From positions 1,364,001 through 1,428,000 of the forward strand of contig NZ_AFEJ02000001.1 of assembly GCF_000238775.2 (NCBI RefSeq): DNA of 64,000 nt. The letters are read 5' to 3'. A model generated the notes under the pieces. That model was given only the letters and a program-made list of their open reading frames with translations, did no database searches and was not told the DNA's origin. The position numbers and the translations under genes are program-made. Position 1 is the stretch's first letter, and every line of letters starts with the position of its first letter. Source of the stretch: Acaryochloris sp. CCMEE 5410 (lineage in GTDB: Bacteria > Cyanobacteriota > Cyanobacteriia > Thermosynechococcales > Thermosynechococcaceae). Shown here piece by piece: positions 9,071 through 62,101 of this stretch.

Positions 9071-10159
9071 CTAGTACTTCCTGACAATGTAGAAGTTGTT
9101 TTGGAAGTCATGCTCAAGCTGCTTGATCTCCACGCGCTTAAATCCAGCTTCTTCAAGCATCTGTAGCGCTTTTTCTTCACCCCAGACCGCACCGAGACCC
9201 ATTCCTCCAGCCGCTAACGAAACAGTCATGCAGTGCAGACAGGAGATGGTGTAAAGCAGCGGTCCAATCGGATGCTCAAGATTTCCACCCACGTCACTAG
9301 AGGCGCGGATGTCTTGCATTAGATAGATGCCATCAGCACGCAAGGCACGGTAGATGTTTTGCAGAACGACATCAGGTTTCGCCTGGTCATGCACAGCGTC
9401 GAAGGTGGTAATGAAATCGTATTCCTCACACAAATCGAGAACTGCTGCATCCTGAATTTTGAACTGAACGTTCTCTAGTCCCAAAGACTGAGCCTCGATA
9501 TTGGCAGTTGCAATCGCATCTTCCGATAGGTCATAGCCTACAAACTGACTCTGGGGAAACAGCGTCGCCATCTTGTTGATAGCCCGACCACTACCGCAGC
9601 CCATATCCATCACCTGAATTCCACGCTTTAGATTGGGAATTAGATCAGGGACCAATGGTAGGATATGCTCGGTTAATGCCGCCACTACAGTTTGACCACT
9701 GTCTTCGGCCATTACCTGATGGAAGCGTTTGTACTCGGAGTAAGGTACCCCGCCACCATGACGAAAGCAGTCTACGATCTGATCTTCAACATTACCTAGC
9801 ACAGGGATGAACTGAGCAATCACTGCGATATTATCGGGGGAGGCATCTCGGGTCAGAAAGGCTGCATGTTCTGGGGGTAAATGATAGGTCTTGTGGGTCG
9901 CATCGTAGTCTACATATCGGGCCGTGGCCATAGAACCCAACCATTCCCGCACATAACGCTCTTGTAAGCCAGCAGTATCAGCAATCCGTTGACTGGTTGC
10001 TGGCGGTAGGTTTTTAAGGGTATCGAATAAGCCAGTTCGGTGACCGACCGAGATCATAAGTGTGAGCGCGCCACTATTAAGTGTATCTAAAAGCCGATTT
10101 GCAAAGACTTCGGCTTTAGTCTCATCAAAAGGTTGGGGAGTTGCGGTAAGCGTTGTCAT
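9071..10159 (-). CDS. Class I SAM-dependent methyltransferase with N-terminal winged helix
   Basis: A 362-residue protein. Residues 20-110 form a winged-helix, dimerisation-type domain (SQRIADTAGLQERYVREWLGSM). From about residue 180 comes a Rossmann methyltransferase fold with motif I VMDMGCGSGRAIN, an acidic strand-2 end (FVGYDLSED) and motif IV-like FDAVHDQAKP. This arrangement resembles Rv2258c-type and small-molecule O-methyltransferases. An AGGAGG-like site (AGGAGGACACC on the minus strand) precedes the ATG. A perfect 9-bp palindrome lies about 70 bases upstream (separate entry). The substrate is unknown. Confidence 0.87.
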   Translation of the reverse strand: MTTLTATPQPFDETKAEVFANRLLDTLNSGALTLMISVGHRTGLFDTLKNLPPATSQRIADTAGLQERYVREWLGSMATARYVDYDATHKTYHLPPEHAAFLTRDASPDNIAVIAQFIPVLGNVEDQIVDCFRHGGGVPYSEYKRFHQVMAEDSGQTVVAALTEHILPLVPDLIPNLKRGIQVMDMGCGSGRAINKMATLFPQSQFVGYDLSEDAIATANIEAQSLGLENVQFKIQDAAVLDLCEEYDFITTFDAVHDQAKPDVVLQNIYRALRADGIYLMQDIRASSDVGGNLEHPIGPLLYTISCLHCMTVSLAAGGMGLGAVWGEEKALQMLEEAGFKRVEIKQLEHDFQNNFYIVRKY

Positions 10160-10225
10160 GGTGTCCTCCTGATGAGCTAAAGGTTAGATTGAGTATAAGT
10201 GGTCAACACTAAGGCCAAAAATCGG

Positions 10226-10249
10226 CATGATGCTCTAGGAAGCATCATG
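10226..10249. promoter_or_regulatory. Palindrome upstream of the methyltransferase gene
   Basis: CATGATGCT, a 6-base spacer and AGCATCATG form a perfect 9-bp inverted repeat in the region where the promoter of the leftward methyltransferase gene should lie. It has no T-run, so a terminator is unlikely. It could be an operator for a dimeric repressor or a transcript hairpin. Function is inferred from position only. Confidence 0.4.
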
Positions 10250-10432
10250 TTTGGCTTCCTCCCTGTTATTCGTCTTGGCTTAAGTTTCCAAGACACTTAA
10301 CCAAAATGCAGTGATCCCGAAAGGTTAAATCTGTGATTCCTGTCAGACTTGCCAACATACAGCCATTGACCCATCTCCAAAATAGGATTCATTGAATCAT
10401 GTTAAGAGGGTGACCGTGGGCTATTCCACTCC

Positions 10433-10579
10433 CTACCCCGACAACACCCCCATGACCTCTCCCTGGAAATCCTTGCGATTATCGTCGTACTGCATCATCA
10501 TTTCTGGATTCGCATGGCGAGAGAGATGCTGCCCTGCCCGGACATTCCCATTCGTAGTATTTAGCGCCGCCGTAATCGA
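10433..10579 (-). pseudogene. C-terminal remnant of a tyrosine recombinase (integrase)
   Basis: On the minus strand 48 codons ending in TAG at 10433-10435 read SSITAALNTTNGNVRAG, then QHLSRHANPEMMMQYDDNR. The LSRH-A-x-P box followed about 9 residues later by the nucleophile tyrosine (MMQYDDNR) is the C-terminal catalytic signature of tyrosine recombinases. The first part matches the region just after the RHS/RHT box. Everything upstream is missing: the reading frame becomes unrelated exactly where a long hairpin arm begins at 10579. This is the tail of a lost phage, island or plasmid integrase. Confidence 0.8.
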
Positions 10580-10628
10580 GGAAGCGGGTCTCGATAAGGA
10601 GACATCACCTTATTGAGACCCGCTTCCT
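10579..10628. repeat. Long imperfect hairpin (21-bp arms) at the integrase break
   Basis: The arms at 10579-10599 and 10608-10628 are inverted copies of AGGAAGCGGGTCTC followed by (G/A)ATAAGG, with one mismatch and an 8-base loop. There is no T-run, so a terminator is not obvious. Its left edge coincides with the end of recognisable integrase code, which fits an inverted duplication formed at a rearrangement breakpoint or one end of a small mobile element. Confidence 0.65.
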
Positions 10629-10960
10629 TGGCAATTTTCCTCATTCACCTCCTCAATATCAAATACTTTTGGGCCAAAATCGCTACCAATCCATTCCTTC
10701 CTCCCTTCGTACTCGGGATGTAGGGATTCTTCATCACTTTCAGCAAATGGGAAGACTCCACAGACCTCCGGTAGACAGGCCCACTTTCATGATCAACCGA
10801 GTGGCTAAAGTATGCCGTTCCCAGTACAACGCCTTGATATCTCTCACCACTACCAGCTTGAACTCAGAGATGCAATGCAACTACCGTATCTATGAAAGCT
10901 CTTTGCTGTCCTTACCCTTGCAAAAGTTGTAGTGCTGGCTTGTTTACTGGAGATGATTGG
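10629..10960. other. Intergenic region with no recognised gene
   Basis: This stretch leads up to the secreted TPR gene. Several short open frames exist on both strands, but none shows a motif, plausible ribosome site or family resemblance. A GGAG followed by ATG at 10961 marks the start of the next gene. It may contain decayed coding sequence from the lost integrase-bearing element. Confidence 0.5.
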
Positions 10961-12232
10961 ATGTTGTTTTTGACGCGCTGGCTAAGCTGCATATTAGTCT
11001 CTGCACTACTACTGAACTTATACAGCTTGCCAGGACGAACTCAGTCACAACGTCCTACATCAACTCCAACAAAACCACGAGAACCACCAGGTTGGGTGAA
11101 GTTGCTAGACCAAGCTCGTCAATACGAGGCATCCCATGACTATCGCAGTGCAGAAAAGATCTACCGTCAACTGCTTGGTCAACCACAACCCAGCTCCATG
11201 AACAACTATATGCATCAATACATTTGGTTGAACCTGGGGTTAAACCTTTCTGAGCAGGGGCAGCTCACAGAGGCGATTAAAGTGTTACAACAGCTTGTAT
11301 CCCTGGATGATGTTAATTCTCACCATGTTGCGAGTGCTAACCATCTCCTAGAACATGTGCAGAAGCAGTTACAGGAGGCGCAAACCAATGTTCAAGATGG
11401 ATTGCGAGACATTAAGGCTGATCCCAATTCAATAAAGGGTTATAAGGACTTAATGACAGGTCTAGCAGCTCAGGGGCAAGCGCTCCAATCTATCTCATTT
11501 CTAGAGCAGCAGCTTGGCTATCCGCTTTCCCCCAATCAACTCTTAGAGCTGGCTAGGGCTGCTAAGTCTTTGCATTGGAAATACGTGTCAAATCACATTC
11601 ACAACCAGCGGTTTGACTTATCGATGGAGCTTTATCAAGAGCTTGTGCAGCGTTTTCCAGATAGCCAAGCCGCCCAATCGGAATATCTCGATTTCTTGGC
11701 TTTATATGGAGCACCCGCAGAGGTGATCTCAGCTTACCAGAACAGAATTCGGCGTAACCCAGAGTTGATTTGGAACTATTGGCAGGCACTCACTCATAAT
11801 CTGGAAGCGGCGGGACGCTTGGAAGAAGCGCGCCAAATTTTTGACCAATTGCTACAGCAAAAACAAACCGAACCCTACGTTTATTTGGCGTTAGGAAGCT
11901 TCTTGGAGCGAACAAAACGGCCTGATGAGGCTGTTCAAGTCTACTTTAAAGCTATTCAAGCCTTTCCTGGCCATAGTCCCAGTGATCGGCGTTGTCATGT
12001 TGTGAAAGCAACAGCCTATGACCGCTTGGTAACGTTGCTAGACCATCAGCATCGCCTTGATCAAGTGCTGAGTCTGTTTCAACATAATTTGCCCAACCTC
12101 ACAGCTTCTATGTATTACAACTTAGGCTTAGCCTTAAGATATGAAGGTTTCCAAGATTTAGAAGCTCAAGTCTCCGATCAAATGCAGACTTCTTTTCCTC
12201 AAGCCCGCGTAGAGAAATCAAGCTTATGTTGA
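10961..12232 (+). CDS. Secreted or membrane-anchored TPR protein
   Basis: From ATG 10961, chosen because GGAG precedes it and it opens directly into a hydrophobic signal (MLFLTRWLSCILVSALLLN), the product has 423 residues. An upstream in-frame ATG at 10892 would put 23 unlikely residues before the signal. The rest is a series of TPR units (YRSAEKIYRQLLGQP, LNLGLNLSEQGQLTEAI, YVYLALGSFLERTKRPDEAV). The protein is probably exported to the periplasm and acts as a protein-binding scaffold. No catalytic domain is visible. Confidence 0.8.
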   Translation: MLFLTRWLSCILVSALLLNLYSLPGRTQSQRPTSTPTKPREPPGWVKLLDQARQYEASHDYRSAEKIYRQLLGQPQPSSMNNYMHQYIWLNLGLNLSEQGQLTEAIKVLQQLVSLDDVNSHHVASANHLLEHVQKQLQEAQTNVQDGLRDIKADPNSIKGYKDLMTGLAAQGQALQSISFLEQQLGYPLSPNQLLELARAAKSLHWKYVSNHIHNQRFDLSMELYQELVQRFPDSQAAQSEYLDFLALYGAPAEVISAYQNRIRRNPELIWNYWQALTHNLEAAGRLEEARQIFDQLLQQKQTEPYVYLALGSFLERTKRPDEAVQVYFKAIQAFPGHSPSDRRCHVVKATAYDRLVTLLDHQHRLDQVLSLFQHNLPNLTASMYYNLGLALRYEGFQDLEAQVSDQMQTSFPQARVEKSSLC

Positions 12233-28344: not shown

Positions 28345-29007
28345 ATGGCCCAAATTTATACTGTTCATCCCCAAGATCCCCAACAGCGAACGATTGACGC
28401 TATTCGGGCTGATCTACTGAATGGAGCGGTCATGCTCTATCCTACAGACACGGTTTATGCCATTGGCTGTGATATCAACGCCAAGGCTGCGGTTCAACGG
28501 GTTCGGCAAATCAAACAGATGTCCAATGACAAACCGTTGACGTTCTTATGTTCATCTCTCTCGAATATCGCTCAGTATGCCCGAGTGAGCGATCCAGCCT
28601 ACAGAATCATGCGGAAGCTGATTCCAGGTCCCTATACCTTTTTGTTACCGGCCACCAAGCTCGTCCCTAAATTGGTCCAAAATCCCAAGCGAAAAACCAC
28701 TGGCATTCGAGTGCCGGATCATCCAGTCTGCCTATCCCTATTGGACTCCCTAGCCACTCCGATTATCTCTACATCTGCGCATTTCTCAGATCAGGAAAGT
28801 GTTCACGGTTGGTCAAAAAAACAAGAGCCCCTCTCCCCAGCTGAACTCTTTGATCATTTTGATAAGCAAGTGGATCTAATTATCGAAAATGGTCAAGACC
28901 TGAGCACCAAAGTCTCAACGATATTAGATCTCTGCCAAGACCAACCCGCAGTGGTGCGCGAGGGTCTGGGTTGGGATACCCTCTCATCCGAATTCGCCTG
29001 GGTTTAG
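28345..29007 (+). CDS. YciO/YrdC-family protein (threonylcarbamoyl-AMP synthase type)
   Basis: From ATG 28345, preceded by a strong AAGGAG at 28331-28336, the product has 220 residues; an upstream in-frame ATG at 28270 overlaps the divergent larC N-terminus and is less likely. The YrdC fold is shown by VMLYPTDTVYAIGCD, IKQMSNDKPLTFLC, PGPYTFLLPA and TTGIRVPDHPV. TsaC/Sua5 enzymes make threonylcarbamoyl-AMP for the t6A modification of tRNAs that read ANN codons. The length and sequence are closer to the YciO branch, whose activity is less certain, so the exact role is inferred. The last four bases overlap the end of the convergent cobT-like gene. Confidence 0.88.
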   Translation: MAQIYTVHPQDPQQRTIDAIRADLLNGAVMLYPTDTVYAIGCDINAKAAVQRVRQIKQMSNDKPLTFLCSSLSNIAQYARVSDPAYRIMRKLIPGPYTFLLPATKLVPKLVQNPKRKTTGIRVPDHPVCLSLLDSLATPIISTSAHFSDQESVHGWSKKQEPLSPAELFDHFDKQVDLIIENGQDLSTKVSTILDLCQDQPAVVREGLGWDTLSSEFAWV

Positions 29008-30112
29008 CCTGAGTTCCGCAAACGGTAGTAGTCTTCTACGGTTTGCTCCACAGCGTTCACAATATCGTTTTGCTGCCACCCCTGGTAGAGGTGAGCTGCG
29101 ATCGCACATCCCCCCGCACCAACTCCTTCTTTCACAAACCCCTGCTCAAATATCTGTAACTGTGGATAGCGTGAGGTGGCGAAACTGAGCTGAGTCGCTA
29201 CCAAGGGCACCTCCCCCACCTGATTCGCGAGGGCAACCGTATCCCCAGAGGGATCCTCAACAACCCAACGGGTGGTCCCCACCAGCATATTGTCAGGGGT
29301 CCAAGGCAGTCGAAACGCCTGGGAAATCTGCCTCGCCAAGGCATACACCGCCAGCATTTGCGTCCCCCCGCCAACATCACCCCACAGGCTCGACTGGCCG
29401 TAATCATCATCCCGGCCACCACAATCTGCATCGGATCGCCCACTGCAGCCACTAGCGCCAACGGATGAGCCAGCCAGTCCTGCAGCCCTGCTTGAGCTAA
29501 ACCTGCCTCGACCAACTGATGCTTTTGCTGATGATTGCAGACTGGATGACTGCTGTTCACTTGGCCTGCTACCGAAAAGCCTAACCCTGTCAATATCCCT
29601 TGGGCTGTTGTCGTCCCTCCCACTACGCATTCAGCCAAGATGAGATATCCATCTGCCGCTTGCTTCGCCAGGGTTTCCCCCCACTCCAGCCCTTGTTGGA
29701 ATAACAGCTCAACAATTGGCAGGGGCAGAGCCATACCTGAACTAAGACAACAGGCCGCTTGTCCCCCCAAATCTACTGTAGGTACCGAGGGCGACTGCTT
29801 TAAACCTGCATTGAAAAGCTGGAGAGGAAAACGTTGAGTGGTATAAATGGCCCATGAAATCATGGCTGGAGACACGCCATAAGCCAAATCAGGTAAAGGA
29901 TACATGGGTCGAGCCTGAGGGCCATTGAACAGAAATTCGGCGTCTGCAAGGGCCGTTAAACATCGAGCCGCTGGTGTTGCCCCCGCCGTCGAAATATTAG
30001 GAATCAATCCTGTCTCCGTAAATCCCAAAACACAGGCAAAAATCGGTGAACGTCCTTCGTGTTGCTTCAGCCACTGATTCCCCCGTTCTAGCTGGGTATA
30101 CACCCGCAGCAT
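29004..30112 (-). pseudogene. cobT: CobT-like phosphoribosyltransferase, one-base frameshift in a G-run
   Basis: From ATG 30112 the frame gives the N-terminal two thirds of a nicotinate-nucleotide:dimethylbenzimidazole phosphoribosyltransferase-like protein (LGFTETGLIPNISTAGA, VGGTTTAQGILTGLGF). It continues through SRACGVMLAGG and then slips into nonsense at a run of six G (C at 29364-29369 on the plus strand). One more G gives GGTQMLAVYALARQIS and the expected C-terminus (GVGAGGCAIAAHLYQGW) to 29004, a 369-residue product. The family activates the lower ligand in cobamide synthesis; cyanobacterial versions with a DUF2232 neighbour are known. Whether this is a true mutation, a slippery tract or a sequencing error is undecided. 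Confidence 0.85.
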
Positions 30113-42109: not shown

Positions 42110-42845
42110 CTAACAGGGCACATACCTAAACCCTTTATTGGTGAGGAGTTCTAGTGTGCTCAACGGACGAGAACAAAATCCCATCTCCATTGCTGGTGTG
42201 GTCTGCTTACTGAGCCCCCAATGGGGTCTAACCCAGTTATGAATCAGGCGTTGTACATCTAGCACTCGCTGTAACCCCGACCGCTTCTTAGCGTAGAGAT
42301 TCTGCCGTCTTCGATAAGCACTACATCGTCTCCTCAAGGCAGCATTGTGAGCCTCATTATGATTGGCATGGACCTCAGACCCTAGACTGATAGCGGTAAA
42401 GGGATGCTCTGCTTTCACCCACTCTACTCGCCGATTCCCCTGAGACCCTTTAACTTTCATCGCGACTTCTAACCCCTCTCGCCAAACCTTGCGATGCCCA
42501 TAGTCAGGATGACACTCCTCACCATTGAGATAGACATTGGCGAGCTTCCAAAGTTCTTGTCCATAACGCCTCTCACCATCGGTAAACCATCGAATCCCAT
42601 CACAGGCTTTGACCCACTCCCAAGCTGAGTAAACGCCATTTGCAAAAAGTTGTGCATCCTTGAGGCCAGCTTGTGCTGTCAACCAATAGCGGCTTTCGCG
42701 TTCAAGGAAATGGATGGTCCAGCCCTGGGATTGGCTGGGGGGAAGATTTTGCCTACACGCGTGTAAACTTCATCCCCTTCTACCGTCACATCAGAGGCTG
42801 CTGGTGCGGGAGGTGACCAGTTCTGTGCTTGGTCTGCTAGGCGTT
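42110..42845 (-). pseudogene. IS1-type InsB transposase, frameshifted
   Basis: Translation in the frame -1 to InsA reads LADQAQNWSPPAPAASDVTV then EGDEVYTRVG, with the catalytic region beginning. Near 42748-42752 an A-run is one base short (AAAA where five would keep the frame), and the rest (SQSQGWTIHFLERESRYWL; DGERRYGQELWKLANVYLN; AISLGSEVHANHNEAHNAAL) lies in a third frame ending inside the terminal repeat. The IS1-type DDE core is otherwise complete. The lesion is in addition to the expected InsA/InsB shift, so the enzyme is inactive unless two shifts occur. Confidence 0.8.
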
Positions 42846-43103: not shown

Positions 43104-44960
43104 TGATCTACATTAGGTTGCGTCGGAAGCATTATAGCTAGATCCTGCTAACAGACCAGTGCCGGCTCTCCTCACCCGCTTAGCTAACGTACAGGGCGCT
43201 AAAAATTCCTGAGCAGAGATATTCACCGCCACGTAGAGATGGGGATAGGCACTGTTAAGGGGAGCAAGGATGGCTAGGCTATGGTCCAGAACCCAATCCG
43301 TGAGGGCAGCAATCAGGTGACTTTCTTCAGCAATGGGAATAAAGGTCGAGGGGGGAACAATACCTAAGGTTGGATGATGCCATCGGACTAATGCTTCTAA
43401 ACCCAAAATTTGCCCTTCAGGTCCGACCTGGGGTTGAAACACTAGGTGTAGTTCATCCTTCTCAATAGCAGTCCTTAAAGCATGCTCAATGGCCAACTTG
43501 CGCTGTAGGGTTGCAGAGAGCTGAGCACTATAGAACTGATAATTATTGCGCCCTTGCGCCTTCGCCCGATACATGGCCAGGTCTGCCTGCTTCATAAGTT
43601 CACTGGAGGTTTTTCCTTGAGCTGGATAAAGGCTAATGCCAATACTGCCACCAATAAAGATATCGTGGTTTTGAACTTGAAACGGGGTTCGTAATTGCTG
43701 AAGAATGGTCTGAGCCATTTTGGCCGCTGCATCTGGGGATGTGGCCTGGGGAAGTAAGACCACAAATTCATCTCCGCCCAGGCGAGCCACGGTATCGGAT
43801 GAAGTCACAGCCCCCTGGAGCCGATGAGCCACTTGACAGAGCAATTCATTCCCAATCGCATGACTCAAGCTGTCATTCACCTTTTTAAAGCCATCTAGAT
43901 CGATGAAGAGCATGGCAAAGGGCGTGGGTTGAACCGCCGTCTTAGCAATGAGGGCTTCTAAGGTATGGCGAAATAAGGTGTGATTGGGAAGAGCTGTCAA
44001 GGCATCATGATGGGCCATAAAGTGAAGCTGATCCGTGAGGGAACGCACCTTGGAAATATCTTCACAGGCCAACAAAAGTTGAGGAATTCCTCGATGGTCA
44101 TGGACTCTACGGGCATTTTGACGAGCCCAGATCAGGGTGCCATCAGCTTGGAACATTTGCGCTTCGCGGCTATGAATCTCGCCAATTTCTAAGTTAGAGA
44201 GGGTTTGTAAGTAAGTCTGAATTTCTGCAGTCTGGTCATCCGGGTGGAGGATACTAAACGGGGAACCAATCAGGTGATCCACTAAATATCCCAGTTGACT
44301 CGCCCCAAAATGGCTGACATGGTGAATCAAGCCCTGTGAATCAAGGGCCAGCAGCAGTAGAGGACTGCCGTCGATAAAGAGGCGTACTTGCTCTTCACTA
44401 TCTCGAAGAACGGCGGCGGCTTGATCTTGTAAGCGAATACGCTCAAAGGTTGAGCCCATTAGTTCGGCCAAGGTCGTTAGAATTGACAGTAGCTGATTGC
44501 CATCTTTGATCCGTTTGGACGAGGCAGCATTGAGAATACCCGTAATCTCACCCATTACATGAACAGGAACGCTCCAGCCACAGTGCAATCCTGCTTCCAT
44601 AAGCATGGCATGTTCGATAAAATCGCTTTCACCCAACTGAGCAAAGAAATAGGGTTGGCCTAGCTCATAAATAAACCCCAAGCCTGATTTCTCTTTGGGT
44701 AAAACAATGTCCGTGGGTAAATAGGCATCTCCAGTAAATCGAAAAATGCGAAATCCCTTTAATTCTGGGGCCGGTTCAGCATAGCTAACGCGATCCACCG
44801 GAATAATTTGTTTGATGGCCTTTGCGATCGCATCAAAGACTTCCTCATCAGAAATGGCGGCGGATAGTGGCTTTGTTCAGAAATGGCCCAAAATGGGTAA
44901 CACTCGCACGACAAACCAGGCCATCTCCAGAAATGACCAGTCCAGAATTTATTCCTTTTG

Positions 44961-46435
44961 CTAAGCCCTTTTGAAGAGTTTGAATCCTAGCAGCTCTAGC
45001 CAGTGAGGATGGCTCTGTCCTGTCATCACTTCTCTAGGACTTTTTCCCTTCCTATCTTCACAACCACTACTCATGAATTGTCGGTGATTGAGAAAGAATT
45101 GAAGCAGTCCTAAATAGGGTGTTCCAAGATGTTTGCGAAGCGTGAAATAATTGCGCAGCCTGGAGTTGAGATTCTCTACCAAAGAACTGGCTCTTGGTGT
45201 CTGTTTCATCGCATTTAGGATCGCTTCATGGAGTTGAAAGAACTTCCAACTCAGCCTCTGATGCAGATCGCCCCAGCTCCTCCAGTAGGCTTCGGAGGTA
45301 GCCTGTTTCCGGAAAAAGCGCACCATCTGTCTGACGAGAAACAGCGGTGTCTCGAATTGCTGGGCAATCTCAGCCAGCTTGCCATCAAATACCTTGGCAA
45401 AGGCCAACAGATCATCGCGTTGATTCTTTAATGCTTTGCGCAAGACTCGAATCTGCTTACCTCCTAGATGCTCACGCTGCTGAAATTCTGCAACGATAAA
45501 GTCATAGAGTTCCAGCCGTTCTGAATGACAGGGACCCGCGAGTTGGAGGACATCATGATTGAGCCACTCTATCAGGGTCTTAATGTCTCTGGCCAGTTGC
45601 ACCGATTGTTTCTCCTGGGTTCTCGCTTTTCCTAAACGGACACAGAGGGGATGCCATTGTCCTTGCTGCTTGGCCTCTGCCATCTTAGCTTCTAGCTCTT
45701 GGCGTCGAGATTTAGCGCCCATTGCTTTTCGATTGAGACTGTTAGCCAGGGTCTGACACTGATGCTGGATGTGGAATACATCCCCATGGCAAGGCTTGTC
45801 TCCAAAGGCTTCCTTCTGTCCAGCCCGCAAGCCTGAGCCAGCGTCAGCAATAGTGTGTGTCGGGTCGAGTCCTTGCTCTGCAGCATTGAGTAGGTGATAG
45901 CCCCAGGTATCCGCATCTCGATGTTCTGCGGCTTCCAGGAGATAGCAATAGGTGGAAGCAGCATCAATGCCGACTAAAACTGGTTTTGAGCCATGGAAGA
46001 TCTCATCGTGCAAACCCACCTCTATCGCAGATAGGTCTTGGGATTGATTGACCTTTATAGCGGATTGTGAGGCAACGGCAAGCCGGTTGTGGATCGTGCC
46101 GACACATGTTGGAAAATCAAAAGATCGCGCAGCAATTCGACGACACCGCGAAAAGAACTATGGCAGATTAGCACCAAGGCTAGAATCAGTTGGAACAACC
46201 AAGCTTTCGTGATGGGTAAATGGAAAAGCACATCATCGTCATTATTATTAGATGGCGAGAAAGCTGCTTCCAAAGCGTCATTTGCCTTGTTGGATTGTTG
46301 ATAGAGAAACTTGCGACTGACTTGGTGTTCTTTAGCGAGGTTGGTGACGGGTTCAGTCTTGGTCAAAACCTGAAGGGCTAACTCCTGGCGCTGGCATGGA
46401 GAAAGAGTAGAGGCGACACAGGAAGAGGAATTCAT
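44961..46435 (-). pseudogene. DDE transposase of an unassigned family, frameshifted
   Basis: Two frames on the minus strand make one transposase of about 490 residues. The first, from ATG 46435, has an N-terminal helix-turn-helix (VTNLAKEHQVSRKFLYQQ) and SSFRGVVELLRDLL; the second supplies DFPTCVGTIHNRLAVASQS, then VLVGIDAASTYCYLLEA, TIADAGSGLRAGQ, HGDVFHIQHQ and SSLVENLNSRLRNYFTLRK, a plausible D-D-E set. The frame must change near 46125, where a base appears to be missing. I do not recognise the IS family. I could not define terminal repeats or a target duplication; the element probably ends within about 90 bases left of 44961, where it removed the start of the GGDEF-EAL gene. Confidence 0.75.
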
Positions 46436-46832: not shown

Positions 46833-47998
46833 CAGGGTTGTTTTACGTTACTCCTAGAAAAAATAGGATGGTTCTACTGACCAACAGTAGAGAGACCGAT
46901 GAGCCATCTAATCGATACTTTGAAGCAAGTCCCGGATTTCCGCAGTGCCCATGGCCGTATTCATCCGTTATGGCTGCTGTTGCTATTGATGGTGATGGGC
47001 ATGCTTGCTGGATATCAAGGGTACCGTCCGTTAGAAACCTTTGTGAGCGATTATCGCCAGCCTTTAAGTGAGCTATTGGGGCTTGAGAGCCTCGAAGTTC
47101 CGTCTCACTGTACCTTTCGTCGAGTGATGAAGGGTCTTGACTTCCAAGCGTTGAGCCACCAATTTGAAGCATGGATGCTCTCGAAAGCCCAGACTCACTC
47201 TCCCGATAATTATGCAGCCTCCATTGATGGCAAACGGATTCGTCAGGGGCTGACAGATGCCAAGGGGAAGCAGCGTTTTGTAGGGTTGGTGAGTTTATTT
47301 GCGGTGGAAGCAGGCATCACCCTCAAGCTCGAAGCCCTCACTCAGGAGGATAATAGCGAAATCAAAGTCGTCCAGGCACTGTTGGAAACCCTTCAACTCG
47401 ATGGCTTGCTGATTACCATGGATGCCTTACACGCCCAAAAAAACACTTGAGAAGATTGTGGCCTCGGGTAACGACTATCTTGTGGCGGTCAAATCCAATC
47501 AGGGAAGACTTTACGACCACCTCCAGACTTACTTTGAGTGTCTTAAACCCATGGCTGAGCACATCCACTCCGCCCAAAGTAGAGGACGAGATGAACATCG
47601 GTGTATACAGGTTTATGAGCCTGTCGGCATAGCCCTACAAGAATGGGAGGCAATTCGCTCTGTACTTTGTGTCCAACGATGGGGTACTCGCAAAGGAAAG
47701 GAGTATCACAATACGGCCTATTACATCAGTTCAGCTGCCACCTCACCCCAGCATTGGCAATCTCTGGTCCGAGAACATTGGGGCATTGAAAATCGGTTGC
47801 ATTGGCCGAAGGATGTTGTTTTTGGCGAAGATGATTATCGACTCGAAGATGAACAAGCACTGCTCAATTGGTCAGTGCTTAGAACTATTGGGATTAATAT
47901 CCTGCGGCTAAACGACTATCAATCCCTCAAAACCGCGATGACTAAGCTGGCTAATCGGGTCGATATTATTTTTTCGCTGCTAACTTAAAACAGCCCTG
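46833..47998 (+). mobile_element. ISAs1-family insertion sequence with 10-bp target duplication
   Basis: A 1166-bp element. The 18-bp ends CAGGGTTGTTTTACGTTA (46833-46850) and, read inward from 47998, CAGGGCTGTTTTAAGTTA differ at two positions. The direct repeat CAGTTGGGGG flanks it at 46823-46832 and 47999-48008. CAGGG ends and 8-10 bp duplications are typical of ISAs1. It lies inside the IS5-type relic, making a nested pair, and is therefore the younger insertion. Confidence 0.92.
46899..47988 (+). pseudogene. ISAs1-family transposase with one frameshift
   Basis: The first frame, from ATG 46899, reads LKQVPDFRSAHGRIHPLW, then YRPLETFVSDYR and NYAASIDGKRIRQGLTD, up to ITMDALHAQK. The second resumes with TLEKIVASGNDYLVAVKSNQ, then HWGIENRLHWPKDVVFGEDD and NILRLNDYQ to TAA at 47988. 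The break is at an A-run of seven (47439-47445); six or nine A would keep the frame. These are the DDE motifs of H-repeat/ISAs1 transposases. Apart from this one lesion the gene is complete, so inactivation may be recent. Confidence 0.88.
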
Positions 47999-58215: not shown

Positions 58216-60693
58216 ATGGGTGATTCTGTTCCAGTTGTGTCCACCTCCAACCTGCCCGATTGGGTGAGGTTGCAACAGGCCCTCTCTGTAGAAGCGGATC
58301 GCGGATTTTGTGACCTAGAAGGCAAGCAATTTCGCTTTAGTCAATTTCTCCAACAGAGTTTGGCCAGTACGGTCCCGCCCCATTCCGAGTCTGCGGTGCA
58401 GGAACGGTGGCAGTCAACGGCTCAGAAGTTTGGTGGTTACGCAGACCTGACCCTGAATCAGCGCCAGCACCTAGTGGCTGAGACTCGACGTCTCCTCTAC
58501 TCCACCCAGAAAGACTACCGTCAGGCCACGGATCCGCCCCCCCAACCCCGGAAGCCAGCCACCCAAAAACTCAAGGCCACTCCTCAGAAACTATCCCTCG
58601 ATCTGCCCATTCTGTCCTTGTCCGGCATTGGTCCTAAAAGTGCTCAGAAGCTAGAGAAGCTGGGGCTGTATAGCGTGCGGGATTTGCTGTTTTACTATCC
58701 CCGTGACCACATTGACTATGCTCGCCAAGTCTCTATTCGAGATTTGGAAGAAGGGGCAACGGTCACTCTAGTGGCGACAGTGCGGCGAGTCAATTGCTTT
58801 AGCAGTCCTCGCAATCCCAAACTCACTATCTTTGAGCTAGTGGTCAAAGATGCCACCGGCCAAGTCAAGCTCAGCCGCTTCTATGCCGGTAATCGCTTTC
58901 GTAGTCGCGGGTGGCAAGAACAACAAAAGCGTCTTTACCCTCCTGGAGCGGTGGTGGCGGCCTCTGGTTTGGTCAAAAGCAGCAAGTATGGCATCACCCT
59001 AGATAACCCTGACCTAGAGGTACTCAACCACTCTGGAGACAAAATTGAGTCCATGGTGATTGGGCGAGTGGTGCCCATCTATGCCCTGACGGAAGGGGTG
59101 ACCCCGGATCTGGTGAGGCGAGCGGTAGTGGCGGCCTTGCCCGCTGCCAAAAGCCTGCGTGATCCCTTACCCGAGGGGCTGCGGCAGCAGAATAATTTAA
59201 CGGATTTGCCGAGTGCGATCGCAGATGTGCATTTCCCTCCCGATAGCGATGCCTTGGATCGGGCTCGTCGTCGTCTGATCTTCGACGAATTCTTTTACCT
59301 ACAGCTCGGGATGCTGGTCCGCCGCCAACAGCAGCGCCAAACCCAAGAAAGTGTGCCCCTCAGCGTCCATGGGGAATTACTGGAGCGATTTTATGAGGTG
59401 CTGCCCTTTACCCTGACCGGGGCGCAACAGCGGGTGCTCCAGGATATTCTGGCAGATTTGCAATCCTCTAAGCCGATGAACCGTCTGGTCCAGGGAGATG
59501 TGGGGTCGGGTAAAACCGTAGTGGCAGTGATTGCTCTCCTCTCAGCCATCCAGTCCGGGTATCAAACCGCCCTGATGGCCCCCACGGAAGTCCTAGCTGA
59601 GCAGCATTATCACAAACTCGTGGAATGGTTTAATCAGCTCCATCTACCCGTTGACTTGTTGACGGGTTCTACCAAAGCGGCCAAACGCCGACAAATTGCT
59701 GAACAGCTTAAAACAGGCGAATTGCCTCTGTTGGTGGGCACCCATGCCCTGATTCAAGACAACGTTGAATTTGATCGCTTGGGCTTAGCTGTCATTGATG
59801 AACAACATCGCTTTGGCGTTCAACAGCGAGCCATGCTGCAGCAAAAAGGTCAGCATCCCCATGTGCTCACCATGACTGCTACTCCTATTCCCCGCACCCT
59901 GGCTCTAACCCTTCATGGCGACCTGGATGTCAGTCAGATTGACGAGCTGCCGCCGGGACGACAGGCGATTCAAACCACCATGTTGACGACCCGCGATCGC
60001 GCCCATGCCTATGACCTGATGCGGCGGGAAATTGCCCAGGGGCGGCAAATTTATATTGTCTTACCCCTAGTCGAGGAATCCGAGAAACTCGATTTGCGCT
60101 CAGCGGTACAAGAGCATGATCGCCTGCAAACCACCATTTTCCCCAACTTCCAGGTGGGGCTGCTGCATGGACGGCTCACCTCTGCCGAAAAAGAGGAGGT
60201 GATTTCCCAGTTCCGGGAGCATACCCTGCATATTTTGGTTTCAACCACTGTAGTAGAAGTGGGCGTCGATATTCCCAATGCCACGGTGATGTTAATTGAA
60301 CATGCCGATCGGTTTGGCCTATCCCAGCTCCACCAGCTCCGAGGTCGAGTCGGTCGAGGAGCCCATCAATCCTATTGCCTACTGATGAATAGTTCGAAAA
60401 CAGAAACGGCTCGCCAGCGGTTAGCGGTATTGGAACAGTCCCAAGATGGCTTCTTTATTGCTGAGATGGATCTCCGCTTTCGGGGACCAGGAGAAGTTTT
60501 AGGCACCCGCCAATCGGGACTGCCTGACCTAGCCCTAGCGAGCTTAGTGGACGATCAAGAGACCCTAGAATTAGCCCGTCAAGCGGCTGAAAAAGTATTG
60601 GAAAAAGACAGCACTTTAGGGGCTTGGCCCCTGATGCAATCCGAATTAAATCTTCGCTATCAAAAACTCATGGGCGGGGCAATTTTTACATAG
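58216..60693 (+). CDS. recG: ATP-dependent DNA helicase RecG
   Basis: An 825-residue fork-reversal helicase. It has an N-terminal extension of about 120 residues, common in cyanobacterial RecG, then the wedge/OB domain (LSGIGPKSAQKLEKLGLYSV; DLLFYYPRDHIDY; VTLVATVRRVN). Helicase motifs are complete: VQGDVGSGKTVVAV (I), MAPTEVLAEQHYHKL (Ia), DEQHRFGVQQR (II), MTATPIPRTLAL (III), STTVVEVGVDIPNAT (V) and QLRGRVGRG (VI). The C-terminal RecG region (DLRFRGPGEVLGTRQSGLPD) is present. It restarts stalled forks and branch-migrates Holliday junctions. Confidence 0.96.
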   Translation: MGDSVPVVSTSNLPDWVRLQQALSVEADRGFCDLEGKQFRFSQFLQQSLASTVPPHSESAVQERWQSTAQKFGGYADLTLNQRQHLVAETRRLLYSTQKDYRQATDPPPQPRKPATQKLKATPQKLSLDLPILSLSGIGPKSAQKLEKLGLYSVRDLLFYYPRDHIDYARQVSIRDLEEGATVTLVATVRRVNCFSSPRNPKLTIFELVVKDATGQVKLSRFYAGNRFRSRGWQEQQKRLYPPGAVVAASGLVKSSKYGITLDNPDLEVLNHSGDKIESMVIGRVVPIYALTEGVTPDLVRRAVVAALPAAKSLRDPLPEGLRQQNNLTDLPSAIADVHFPPDSDALDRARRRLIFDEFFYLQLGMLVRRQQQRQTQESVPLSVHGELLERFYEVLPFTLTGAQQRVLQDILADLQSSKPMNRLVQGDVGSGKTVVAVIALLSAIQSGYQTALMAPTEVLAEQHYHKLVEWFNQLHLPVDLLTGSTKAAKRRQIAEQLKTGELPLLVGTHALIQDNVEFDRLGLAVIDEQHRFGVQQRAMLQQKGQHPHVLTMTATPIPRTLALTLHGDLDVSQIDELPPGRQAIQTTMLTTRDRAHAYDLMRREIAQGRQIYIVLPLVEESEKLDLRSAVQEHDRLQTTIFPNFQVGLLHGRLTSAEKEEVISQFREHTLHILVSTTVVEVGVDIPNATVMLIEHADRFGLSQLHQLRGRVGRGAHQSYCLLMNSSKTETARQRLAVLEQSQDGFFIAEMDLRFRGPGEVLGTRQSGLPDLALASLVDDQETLELARQAAEKVLEKDSTLGAWPLMQSELNLRYQKLMGGAIFT

Positions 60694-61002
60694 ATTTGCA
60701 ACAATGCAATTTTATGGGTATCATAAGTTATTATCATGTGTGTGCTCCGGGGATCCGCGACTTTAGACTCCGTAATTGTCGTTCCCGGGGCAATTTATTT
60801 TTAAATTGGCTAATAGAGCGTCTTCCCTTCATCTTTTAGACCTGCTCTTTCTTGAAAACGCAGAAACCTCTCTAGAACTTATCCAGCAAGAGTTTGGAGG
60901 TTCGCTTCCTGGGGAGACGAAAGATCTAACAAATAATTTCACTGCTCTTTGAACCTTTCTAGAACCGTGCCAGTCTAAGCAGTAGCGTTACACAATTGAC
61001 TT
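60694..61002. other. Intergenic region upstream of the octapeptide-repeat gene
   Basis: About 310 bases behind recG. I see no RNA gene. A CCGGGG / CCCGGGG pair and an AATTTATTTTTAAATT stretch at 60745-60810 suggest weak secondary structure but no good terminator. The promoter for the next gene probably lies near 60940-60990. Confidence 0.5.
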
Positions 61003-61275
61003 ATGACTAAAAAATTCCTTGTTTTAGCGGCTGTTCTAGTACTAGGTTCGGCTGGAATTGCGATCCCAGCTAATGCGAAACCCATTATTCGTAAAGGCCC
61101 CAAAAGAACCTTAGTTCGGAGTCCCAAGCGCACCTTCTATAGCGGCCCTAAACGGACATTTTATAGTGGTCCGAAGCGTACTTTTTACGATGGTCCGAAG
61201 CGCACGGTCTTCAATGGTCCCAAAGGCATTGTTGTGAAGGGACCTAACAAAACGATTGTTAAACCCCATCGATAA
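61003..61275 (+). CDS. Small secreted basic protein built of GPKRTFYS-like octapeptide repeats
   Basis: A 90-residue protein. Residues 1-25 form a clear signal peptide (KKFLVLAAVLVLGSAG, ending in an ANA cleavage site). The mature 65 residues are seven consecutive eight-residue units: GPKRTLVR, SPKRTFYS, GPKRTFYS, GPKRTFYD, GPKRTVFN, GPKGIVVK, GPNKTIVK, with a closing PHR. There are no cysteines. The mature chain is very basic and lysine/arginine-rich. At DNA level the repeats use different synonymous codons for the same residues, so they are not a recent tandem copy. I recognise no family. No modifying enzyme or protease gene is adjacent (recG before, dut after). It may bind an anionic surface such as exopolysaccharide, membrane or nucleic acid, but this is a guess. 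Confidence 0.8.
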   Translation: MTKKFLVLAAVLVLGSAGIAIPANAKPIIRKGPKRTLVRSPKRTFYSGPKRTFYSGPKRTFYDGPKRTVFNGPKGIVVKGPNKTIVKPHR

Positions 61276-61362
61276 TCACTGTCTTAACTCACTGCCTTGA
61301 GGTTGGATATCTCCTCACCCATCAACGCTTGGCCAAGCATTTGTGTTTCCCGTTGATCCGCT

Positions 61363-61794
61363 TTAAGCATATCCAGTTGAACCAAATCCCCCTTCCCCTC
61401 TTTGGGTGGTGCTTAATTCAGATACTTCTTCAATCTCGGCGCGCATAATTGGTGCAATCACCATTTGAGCAATTTTCATTCCCTCAACCACCTGAAAGGC
61501 TTCTTGACCGTGGTTAATTAAGATCACCCCAATTTCACCGCGATACCCCGCATCAATGGTTCCTGGTGAATTCAATACCGTAATGGAATGCTTGAGCGCT
61601 AAACCGCTCCTGGGACGCACCTGGGCTTCTGTCCCTTGGGGCAACTCGATGGCAATTCCAGTTGGGATCAGTGCCGATTTACCTGGCGAAATTTGCTGGG
61701 CTTGAATGGCAAATAGATCCAGTCCTGCATCATCGGCGTGGCTGTAACAAGGAACTTGGGCCGATTCGTTTAACTTGATAATTTTGATTTTCAT
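61363..61794 (-). CDS. dut: Deoxyuridine 5'-triphosphate nucleotidohydrolase (dUTPase)
   Basis: A 143-residue trimeric dUTPase from the ATG at 61792-61794; an ATG at 61806 would add four residues. The five family motifs are visible: [10 protein letters not shown] (1), PRSGLALKH (2), [15 protein letters not shown] (3), [10 protein letters not shown] (4) and [10 protein letters not shown] (5). It converts dUTP to dUMP, keeping uracil out of DNA and supplying thymidylate synthesis. Its ATG overlaps the stop of the upstream hicA-like remnant as ATGA, so translation may be coupled. Confidence 0.96.
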
Positions 61795-61892
61795 CGTTTT
61801 TGGCACATTAGCTTATAGCCTTCTACGGTCCAGGCAATTTTGAGTAGTGCTGTAAAAGCTCGCTTGGATTGAGTACTGCTCCATTTACTCAT
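61791..61892 (-). pseudogene. hicA: Truncated HicA-like toxin remnant
   Basis: A 33-residue frame starting at the ATG at 61890-61892, overlapping the hicB stop as ATGA, and ending in TGA at 61791-61793, overlapping the dut start as ATGA. It reads [19 protein letters not shown], which resembles the beginning of HicA proteins (K-x-L-x-x-L-x-x-x-G-W). A normal HicA has about 60-80 residues with an active-site histidine in GSH, missing here. The toxin is therefore probably dead, but the double overlap keeps the translation unit intact. Confidence 0.6.
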
Positions 61893-62101
61893 GCAGCATT
61901 CAAAGTAACACTTACCAACATAGATGGAGTTTCACCATTTTCGAGTCTTTCTACAAGTACCATCAGTGCCAGAGTTTGCAGTTTAGATATCGCTTCTTTT
62001 AGGCCTTGGTCATAGAGCATTACACCAGATAGGGTTGGAATCTTTGCAATCCAGCGACCATCTTCTTCTTGCTCCATTTCAAAGATCATGGCTGCAGCCA
62101 C
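61889..62101 (-). CDS. hicB: HicB-type antitoxin / DUF1902-like protein
   Basis: A 70-residue protein. MIFEMEQEEDGRWIAKIPTL followed by SGVMLYDQGLKEAISKLQ matches the HicB/DUF1902 fold, in which the partial RNase H-like domain neutralises HicA. The DNA-binding C-terminal extension of longer HicB proteins is absent. A start at 62089 (fifth codon) is also possible. The neighbour downstream is a shortened hicA frame, so this may be an orphan antitoxin kept for cross-neutralisation or simply a relic. Confidence 0.75.
   Translation of the reverse strand: MAAAMIFEMEQEEDGRWIAKIPTLSGVMLYDQGLKEAISKLQTLALMVLVERLENGETPSMLVSVTLNAA

Follow-up and report, generated by a model that had tools for sequence, protein, structure and literature searches.

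The octad gene and its product

The window, i.e., the whole stretch of DNA that was analysed (64,000 nucleotides; C1:1364001-1428000), belongs to the 8.09 Mb genome of Acaryochloris sp. CCMEE 5410. At 61003-61275 its forward strand carries an open reading frame (ORF) for an octad-repeat protein of 90 amino acids, which is predicted to be exported. Residues 1-25 (61003-61077, forward strand; MTKKFLVLAAVLVLGSAGIAIPANA) constitute a putative Sec-type signal peptide with the cleavage motif ...PANA/K. It was assigned by eye and by its hydropathy (best 12-mer 2.75), and the sequence around the site (ANA/KPIIR) is the same in four orthologues, i.e., the window protein and its three counterparts described below. 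These features support export of the protein via the general Sec route. A signal peptide is evidence that a protein crosses the inner membrane and does not imply its release from the cell. The term secreted, which was used in a preliminary description of this DNA, is hence justified for the export but not for the release, and exported is the fitting word.

Of the 65 residues of the mature part, 56 fall into seven octads which are all in register (residues 32-87; 61096-61263, forward strand). At the DNA level they appear as a tandem repeat with a period of 24 nt and 73-80% matches. Starting from residue 32, the units read GPKRTLVR, SPKRTFYS, GPKRTFYS, GPKRTFYD, GPKRTVFN, GPKGIVVK and GPNKTIVK, and are followed by the C-terminal residues PHR (61264-61272, forward strand), which are invariant in the four orthologues. 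The mature part contains 32 identical residue pairs at a distance of eight, a number that was reached by none of 100,000 shuffled sequences (shuffle maximum: 16). It comprises 19 lysines and arginines, one aspartate and no glutamate, resulting in a pI of 11.8 and a net charge of about +18 at pH 7; seven aromatic residues (F/Y/W) are present in the window protein. The preliminary description had given the position, the reading frame, the number of units and the very basic character correctly. Its statement that the mature part consists almost only of GPKRTFYS-like units holds for the presence of seven octads, but only units 2-4, and to a lesser degree unit 5, are close to this sequence, and the last two units are degenerate.

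Identical residues in different units are frequently encoded by different synonymous codons, as had been pointed out before. The Lys-Arg pairs, for example, are encoded by AAAAGA, AAGCGC, AAACGG, AAGCGT and AAGCGC. In total, 21 of 88 same-residue pairs between units share an identical codon, compared to 32.7 expected from random draws based on the codon usage of the neighbouring genes recG and dut. This divergence, together with the modest identity of the repeats at the DNA level, suggests that the repeats are old. AlphaFold, run with four sequences, yielded a mean pLDDT of 50.6 and a pTM of 0.18, with helix being confined to the signal peptide. The block means of 40-45 for residues 41-90 would agree with a largely unfolded mature chain, but could likewise result from the shallow alignment of four close sequences. 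A search of PDB sequences with the window protein gave no meaningful match (best E-value: 0.17).

The octad gene is located between two housekeeping genes which are regarded as not belonging to the system. Upstream lies recG (58216-60693, forward strand; NF008170, 1359 bits at a cut-off of 975), and the convergent downstream neighbour is dut, encoding a dUTP diphosphatase (61363-61806, reverse strand; NF001862, 197 bits at a cut-off of 103). Beyond these two lie a GNAT acetyltransferase gene, on the recG side, and two ORFs without Pfam family. Elsewhere in the window, inspection by eye revealed a GGDEF/EAL-like protein (43113-44798, reverse strand) which is seemingly cut short within its EAL part and is flanked by transposase-like ORFs (42110-42682 and 44961-46019). 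Two overlapping frames of 208 and 304 amino acids at 29004-30112 (reverse strand) seem to form a single nicotinate-nucleotide phosphoribosyltransferase-like gene interrupted by a frame change, and two overlapping frames at 46899-47988 (forward strand) resemble an IS transposase split in the same manner (both by eye).

Conservation in Acaryochloris

Orthologues were found in three of six other Acaryochloris genomes: L032 in G002 (97% identity), L033 in G001 (91%) and L034 in G004 (79%). Each of them consists of 90 amino acids with seven units and is encoded beside recG; the named records for the closest orthologues belong to Acaryochloris metagenome-assembled genomes (MAGs). Pairwise dN/dS values (Nei-Gojobori, four orthologues) range from 0.05 to 0.13 for the whole gene and from 0.03 to 0.13 for the mature part, with dS being saturated for the pair L033-L034. 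Among the 91 codon columns (stop codon included), 39 vary only synonymously and 21 alter the residue. Only one of the six frames, the forward coding frame, is free of stops in all four carriers. These comparisons support well that the gene is real and under purifying selection. The preliminary description, which had considered the repeats as old and preserved at the protein level, is borne out in this respect. A lack of homologues or broken frames, which it had named as signs of a spurious or strain-specific frame, was not observed, all frames in the orthologues being open.

The number of seven units is constant in all four carrying genomes; a varying copy number, which would have pointed to slippage, was therefore dropped from consideration. 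The earlier expectation of a variable copy number with an unchanged GPKRT is contradicted in both parts, as GPKRT is replaced by SPKWT, RPKRT, GPQRT or GPKHT in some orthologous units. Proline is the sole residue which is invariant in all seven units of the four orthologues. In addition, FYD of unit 4, VFN of unit 5 and the C-terminal IVKPHR are invariant among them. The Lys-Arg pair is missing from units 2 and 5 of L034 and from unit 5 of L032. L034 contains 17 lysines and arginines versus two acidic residues, as well as seven aromatic residues; its [GS]P spacing includes one gap of 16, owing to a unit that starts with RP, and the final unit starts with EP. Across the orthologues, units at the same position differ on average by 4.64 bases (n = 42) and units at different positions by 10.20 bases (n = 252), and in 74 of 84 directed octad comparisons between species the unique best match was the positional counterpart. 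The units are not homogenised and each of them keeps its own identity. The prolines, most of the basic residues and the order of the units are maintained by selection.

Directly adjacent to the start codon lies a conserved block of 32 nt (60971-61002, forward strand), which is likely to represent a promoter or 5′ leader. It is identical in three of the four carriers and differs at a single position in the fourth. Each carrying genome has one copy of it, whose upstream DNA varies among the carriers, and no copy with three or fewer mismatches was found in G003, G005 and G006, the Acaryochloris genomes without an octad gene. A scan for sigma-70 promoters (60600-61500) yielded no site near the octad gene; it yielded three sites, all of them at 60695-60737, compared to an average of 1.6 in shuffled sequences. 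No Rfam match was obtained for 60400-61900 at E-values up to 1. Just past recG, at 60744-60812, the sequence reads GCTCCGGGGATC, then GACTTTAGACTCCGTAATTGTCGT and then CCGGGGCAA plus a T-rich stretch. The four carriers share this segment in almost identical form; it is also present 3′ of recG in G005 and, in a diverged form, in G006. It may be a terminator hairpin of recG with a conserved loop; a terminator scan, which covered only loops of 3-8, gave no hit there, and neither did Rfam.

In G005 and G006 other genes are located downstream of recG, and no octad ORF is found at this place. In G003 the contig stops within recG, so that the octad locus is beyond view, and no orthologue was found elsewhere in this genome. 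Given a completeness of 82-92% for the six other genomes, absence outside of the checked recG locus is weaker evidence. The dut gene was found in the four octad carriers and not in G003, G005 and G006 (E-value threshold: 1e-10), and a joint gain or loss of dut and the octad gene in one segment is possible. In G001 the dut homologue is divided between two contigs, C136 and C128: the C-terminal 34 residues are encoded beside the octad gene near a contig end and the remainder on the other contig, which is perhaps due to the insertion of a mobile element or to an assembly break.

Octad proteins in other cyanobacteria

A class-wide draw of 388 genomes was searched with profiles from two alignments (A2 and A3), which matched 9 and 18 genomes, respectively. 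Seven of the 388 genomes were accepted after the matched frames had been read by eye, namely the four Acaryochloris carriers and G035, G116 and G073. All accepted genomes have a best match of at least 59 bits; the matches to rejected repeats did not exceed 39 bits, with E-values as low as 1e-8 to 1e-9. In a draw from the phylum (386 genomes, overlapping with the class draw) three matches were obtained at an E-value of 1e-6, of which only that to the window's own genome was real, the other octad carriers evidently lying outside of this draw. This scarcity (7/388 and 1/386) suggests that the protein is dispensable for most cyanobacteria. In the order of G073, two of nine genomes (G073 and G116) carry an octad gene; G035 is the single genome of its order. 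G073 and G116 are presumably Gloeobacterales, and G073, as well as G041 from the same order, we take to be Gloeobacter species.

The proteins L006 (G035), L036 (G116) and L037 (G073) resemble the window protein in having an N-terminal signal peptide, being encoded by a single ORF, being net basic and showing a period of eight, in which [GS]P recurs and positions 6 and 7 of the unit are mostly occupied by aromatic or beta-branched residues. Typical units are GPNRTFFN, GPNRTYYN and GPNVDYYN, following the pattern [N/S/D]GP[N/K]RT[F/Y][Y/F]. The shared skeleton consists of the GP turn, threonine (or aspartate) at position 5 and large hydrophobic residues at positions 6 and 7. In contrast to the window protein, these proteins have asparagine instead of lysine at position 3, contain 9 to about 14 units rather than seven, are more aromatic and less basic, and have different gene neighbours. 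Basic and acidic residues (K+R/D+E) amount to 19/5 in L036, 13/4 in L037 and 11/7 in L006 (pI 11.5, 10.2 and 9.2, respectively), and F/Y/W to 20, 20 and 25. Basicity is thus strongest in Acaryochloris, and as the charge falls and the aromatic content rises in the distant proteins, charge may not be what these proteins have in common functionally. Consecutive [GS]P pairs are always eight residues apart in the window protein, L036 and L037. L006 mostly keeps this spacing, except for distances of 16 and 20 at a unit without proline or at a spacer; unlike the window protein, L006 also often has valine at position 4 and aspartate at position 5. The match of G035 reached an E-value of 4.3e-13 at 37% identity, a value to be read with the inflation of E-values by repeats in mind, as this profile also matched repeats of other proteins at 1e-8 to 1e-9. 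The resemblance of the distant proteins may stem from common ancestry or from convergence.

Pfam searches of the neighbouring genes identified DUF1800 and HGSNAT_cat (an HGSNAT-type acyltransferase) for G073, and a HAD hydrolase, a DUF1822 protein and one protein without family for G035. The neighbours in G116 are UPF0047 and a circularly permuted ATP-grasp protein (PF14403; 541 bits at a cut-off of 32). At this locus (L071), the latter gene (9644-11086) follows the octad gene (9158-9544) on the same strand at a distance of 100 nt.

Eleven of the 18 matched genomes of the class draw were rejected upon reading of the frames. The match of G006, as well as second loci in G001 and G002, represent DPxxTQLQ-type repeats in long proteins, and G001 and G002 remain accepted for their orthologues. 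These long Acaryochloris proteins (L058 in G006, L065 in G001 and L043 in G002) carry the repeats as a tail with a period of eight and are, as far as seen, unrelated to the octad protein. G356, which was matched in both the class and the phylum draw, has SPNPTSIN repeats within a long protein; the matches of G070, G114, G257, G276 and G298 are out-of-frame readings of repeats from other genes, and those of G106, G367, G135 and G045 lack GP octads. The match of G106 was the third one in the order of G073 and is without octads. In the phylum draw, EPTEAPTQ repeats of G444 had been read out of frame. Ten loci from weaker matches (E-values from 0.04 to 1) were read and none was accepted. A match on a viral contig (L093) is due to one chance unit, FSGPKRTFYD, in an unrelated protein of 230 amino acids, and phage sequences gave no match, which is weak evidence as the low-complexity filter was on. 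In G041, from the same genus as G073, a gene on the reverse strand (L012, 1492-2301) encodes a signal-peptide-like stretch followed by nonapeptide repeats of the GPxGxxxYx type; it was left out of the octad count because of its different period.

Possible function and comparison with known systems

The reading that we prefer, with a probability of about 0.4, is that the octad protein is a small exported structural polycation, probably unfolded, which would bind anionic polymers of the envelope or the extracellular matrix. This is based on the seven exported units, the charge of about +18 at pH 7, the lack of a predicted fold and the lack of partner genes at this locus. A polyanion-binding or matrix role was also among the functions offered in the preliminary description, and it remains plausible. 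After Sec export and cleavage of the signal peptide, a largely unfolded polycation of 65 residues would remain, in which each unit might form a turn ([S/N/D/K]-G-P-K) and a short extended segment (R-T-[F/V]-[Y/V]). The repeated lysines and arginines together with the aromatic residues could bind many sites on exopolysaccharide, LPS or extracellular DNA, and the protein would glue or coat rather than catalyse. Turn and strand anatomy, polyanion binding and the location in matrix or envelope are features that we infer. Neighbours of a housekeeping nature (recG and dut, and the GNAT gene beyond recG) are what would be expected for a stand-alone structural protein, and it also counts for the structural polycation that the distant octad proteins are likewise exported, net basic and rich in aromatic residues. 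The ATP-grasp gene adjoining the octad gene of G116 speaks against a purely structural reading in that genome, but it is not common to the other carriers. The rarity of octad genes among the sampled cyanobacteria and the lower charge of the distant proteins also weigh against the structural polycation. A role specific for the thylakoid lumen appears less likely, given that two of the distant carriers look like Gloeobacterales and that lumen and periplasm are a single space in Gloeobacter violaceus (PMC12341915).

Rather doubtful is the wider idea that exported octad "glue" proteins with the unit [N/S/D]GP[N/K]RT[F/Y][Y/F] form an undescribed class of their own in cyanobacteria. They would condense with anionic exopolysaccharide via repeated contacts of Arg/Lys and Tyr, would be kept unit by unit in Acaryochloris and would recur in distant, perhaps early-branching, cyanobacteria. 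If true, a compact and selectable repeat unit would be added to the few known structural proteins of cyanobacterial matrices and envelopes, and the protein is short enough for direct synthesis and testing. Tandem-repeat units that are held in place individually by selection over the four genomes compared also differ from the fast turnover which is usually expected of low-complexity repeats. At present the finding amounts to a readily testable curiosity and not to an established new system.

Among the other explanations, the one closest behind the structural polycation, owing to the individual preservation of the units, is a periplasmic or lumenal helper which docks on one specific partner (peptidoglycan, an outer-membrane protein or a membrane surface) and not on bulk matrix. 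Unit-specific preserved residues and positional identity resemble a defined binding surface more than an interchangeable polymer, but the gene neighbours hint at no partner and no fold is predicted, so that this explanation is regarded as tentative. That the frame is low-complexity DNA which is open by chance could be argued from the lack of a family model at cut-off; with the low dN/dS, the sole frame open in four genomes and the conserved start block, the probability of this is negligible. A cationic antimicrobial peptide-like effector, released against competitors, would agree with a short, exported protein of pI 11.8 that is rich in proline, arginine and lysine. It appears quite unlikely, since neither an adjoining immunity gene nor a dedicated export gene was recognised (mostly by eye), the protein has a signal peptide of the general Sec kind, and the exact length and number of units are constrained over four genomes rather than diversifying.

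A multi-copy precursor, which had been proposed in the preliminary description, would be an exported chain from which octapeptide signals or modified peptides (RiPPs) are excised, e.g., by cleavage at Lys-Arg. The Lys-Arg pair is present in five of the seven window units, and ATP-grasp enzymes are an enzyme class able to act on peptides, so that the ATP-grasp gene following the octad gene of G116 slightly raises the odds of this explanation and slightly lowers those of a structural polycation. Moreover, the distant proteins score below the cut-offs of precursor models, i.e., 31.9 (L006), 18.7 (L036) and 16.8 bits (L037) for the thiovarsolin precursor model NF033878 (cut-off 35) and 14.6 bits (L037) for the GrrA cyclophane RiPP model TIGR04260 (cut-off 31). 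As in the octad proteins, the units of the thiovarsolin precursor family contain proline, and thiovarsolin precursors carry repeated cores (PMC6511847). However, the window protein had no NCBIfam match at E-values up to 10 and L034 none up to 1, the octad proteins have a Sec signal peptide, and no YcaO or TfuA was recognised nearby. YcaO, TfuA and radical SAM proteins were found neither beside the gene in the window (nearest genes by Pfam, the rest by eye for ORFs of at least 130 amino acids), where recG, dut, the GNAT gene and two family-less ORFs are the neighbours, nor among seven Pfam-scanned neighbours of the distant octad genes, and the ATP-grasp gene is shared by neither G073 nor G035. 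The GrrM radical SAM model TIGR04261 had no match in six Acaryochloris genomes (the four carriers and the non-carriers G005 and G006) and G116 (E-value threshold: 1e-5). G035 has one match over the cut-off on another contig and G073 three below it, and matches below the cut-off also occur in eight of 14 control genomes. Finally, the units are not homogenised as would be expected for a precursor releasing identical peptides, and Lys-Arg is lost in several orthologous units. A precursor is thus disfavoured and considered improbable.

None of the known families accounts for the octad proteins, in agreement with the preliminary description, as no Pfam or NCBIfam cut-off was reached by the window protein, L034 or the distant proteins. 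The window protein scored 19.0 bits for DUF4774 (cut-off 25) and 15.1 bits for DUF3432 (cut-off 26.7), and both remained below cut-off in all six octad proteins scanned. DUF4774 comprises repeats of insect proteins and DUF3432 repeats of the tail of EGR transcription factors, and the likeness is most likely convergence. L006 scored 12.3 bits for YbgS (cut-off 27). No description of such a protein was found in the literature searched, including searches for octad strings in full text; in the family libraries and literature searched, the octad protein is undescribed. Outside of cyanobacteria, the conjugative plasmid pSX1_LC6 of Shewanella sp. LC6 carries an unannotated ORF (L045, 1956-2357) which matches the window protein at an E-value of 2e-3 and L037 at 2e-7. 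It shares a signal peptide and octads (GPGGPAYD type) with the octad proteins but is acidic (pI 4.1; four K/R, nine D/E), glycine-rich and contains cysteine, and its octads are probably convergent. An annotated copper resistance protein B on a plasmid of Comamonadaceae OTU4NAUVB1 matches L037 (E-value 9e-5; 34.7% over 71% of the query), probably due to its composition.

With regard to function, mussel foot proteins are repetitive adhesive proteins, and the putative class of octad "glue" proteins would be a bacterial counterpart of them. Within the cyanobacteria, a comparison can be made with the small secreted EbfG matrix proteins of Synechococcus elongatus, which are encoded in an operon of four genes and of which EbfG1-3 form amyloid (PMC9981879). 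The octad gene, in contrast, is a single gene, and the EbfG proteins, likened here by their description and by their place at the cell surface or in the matrix, would be functional analogues at most.
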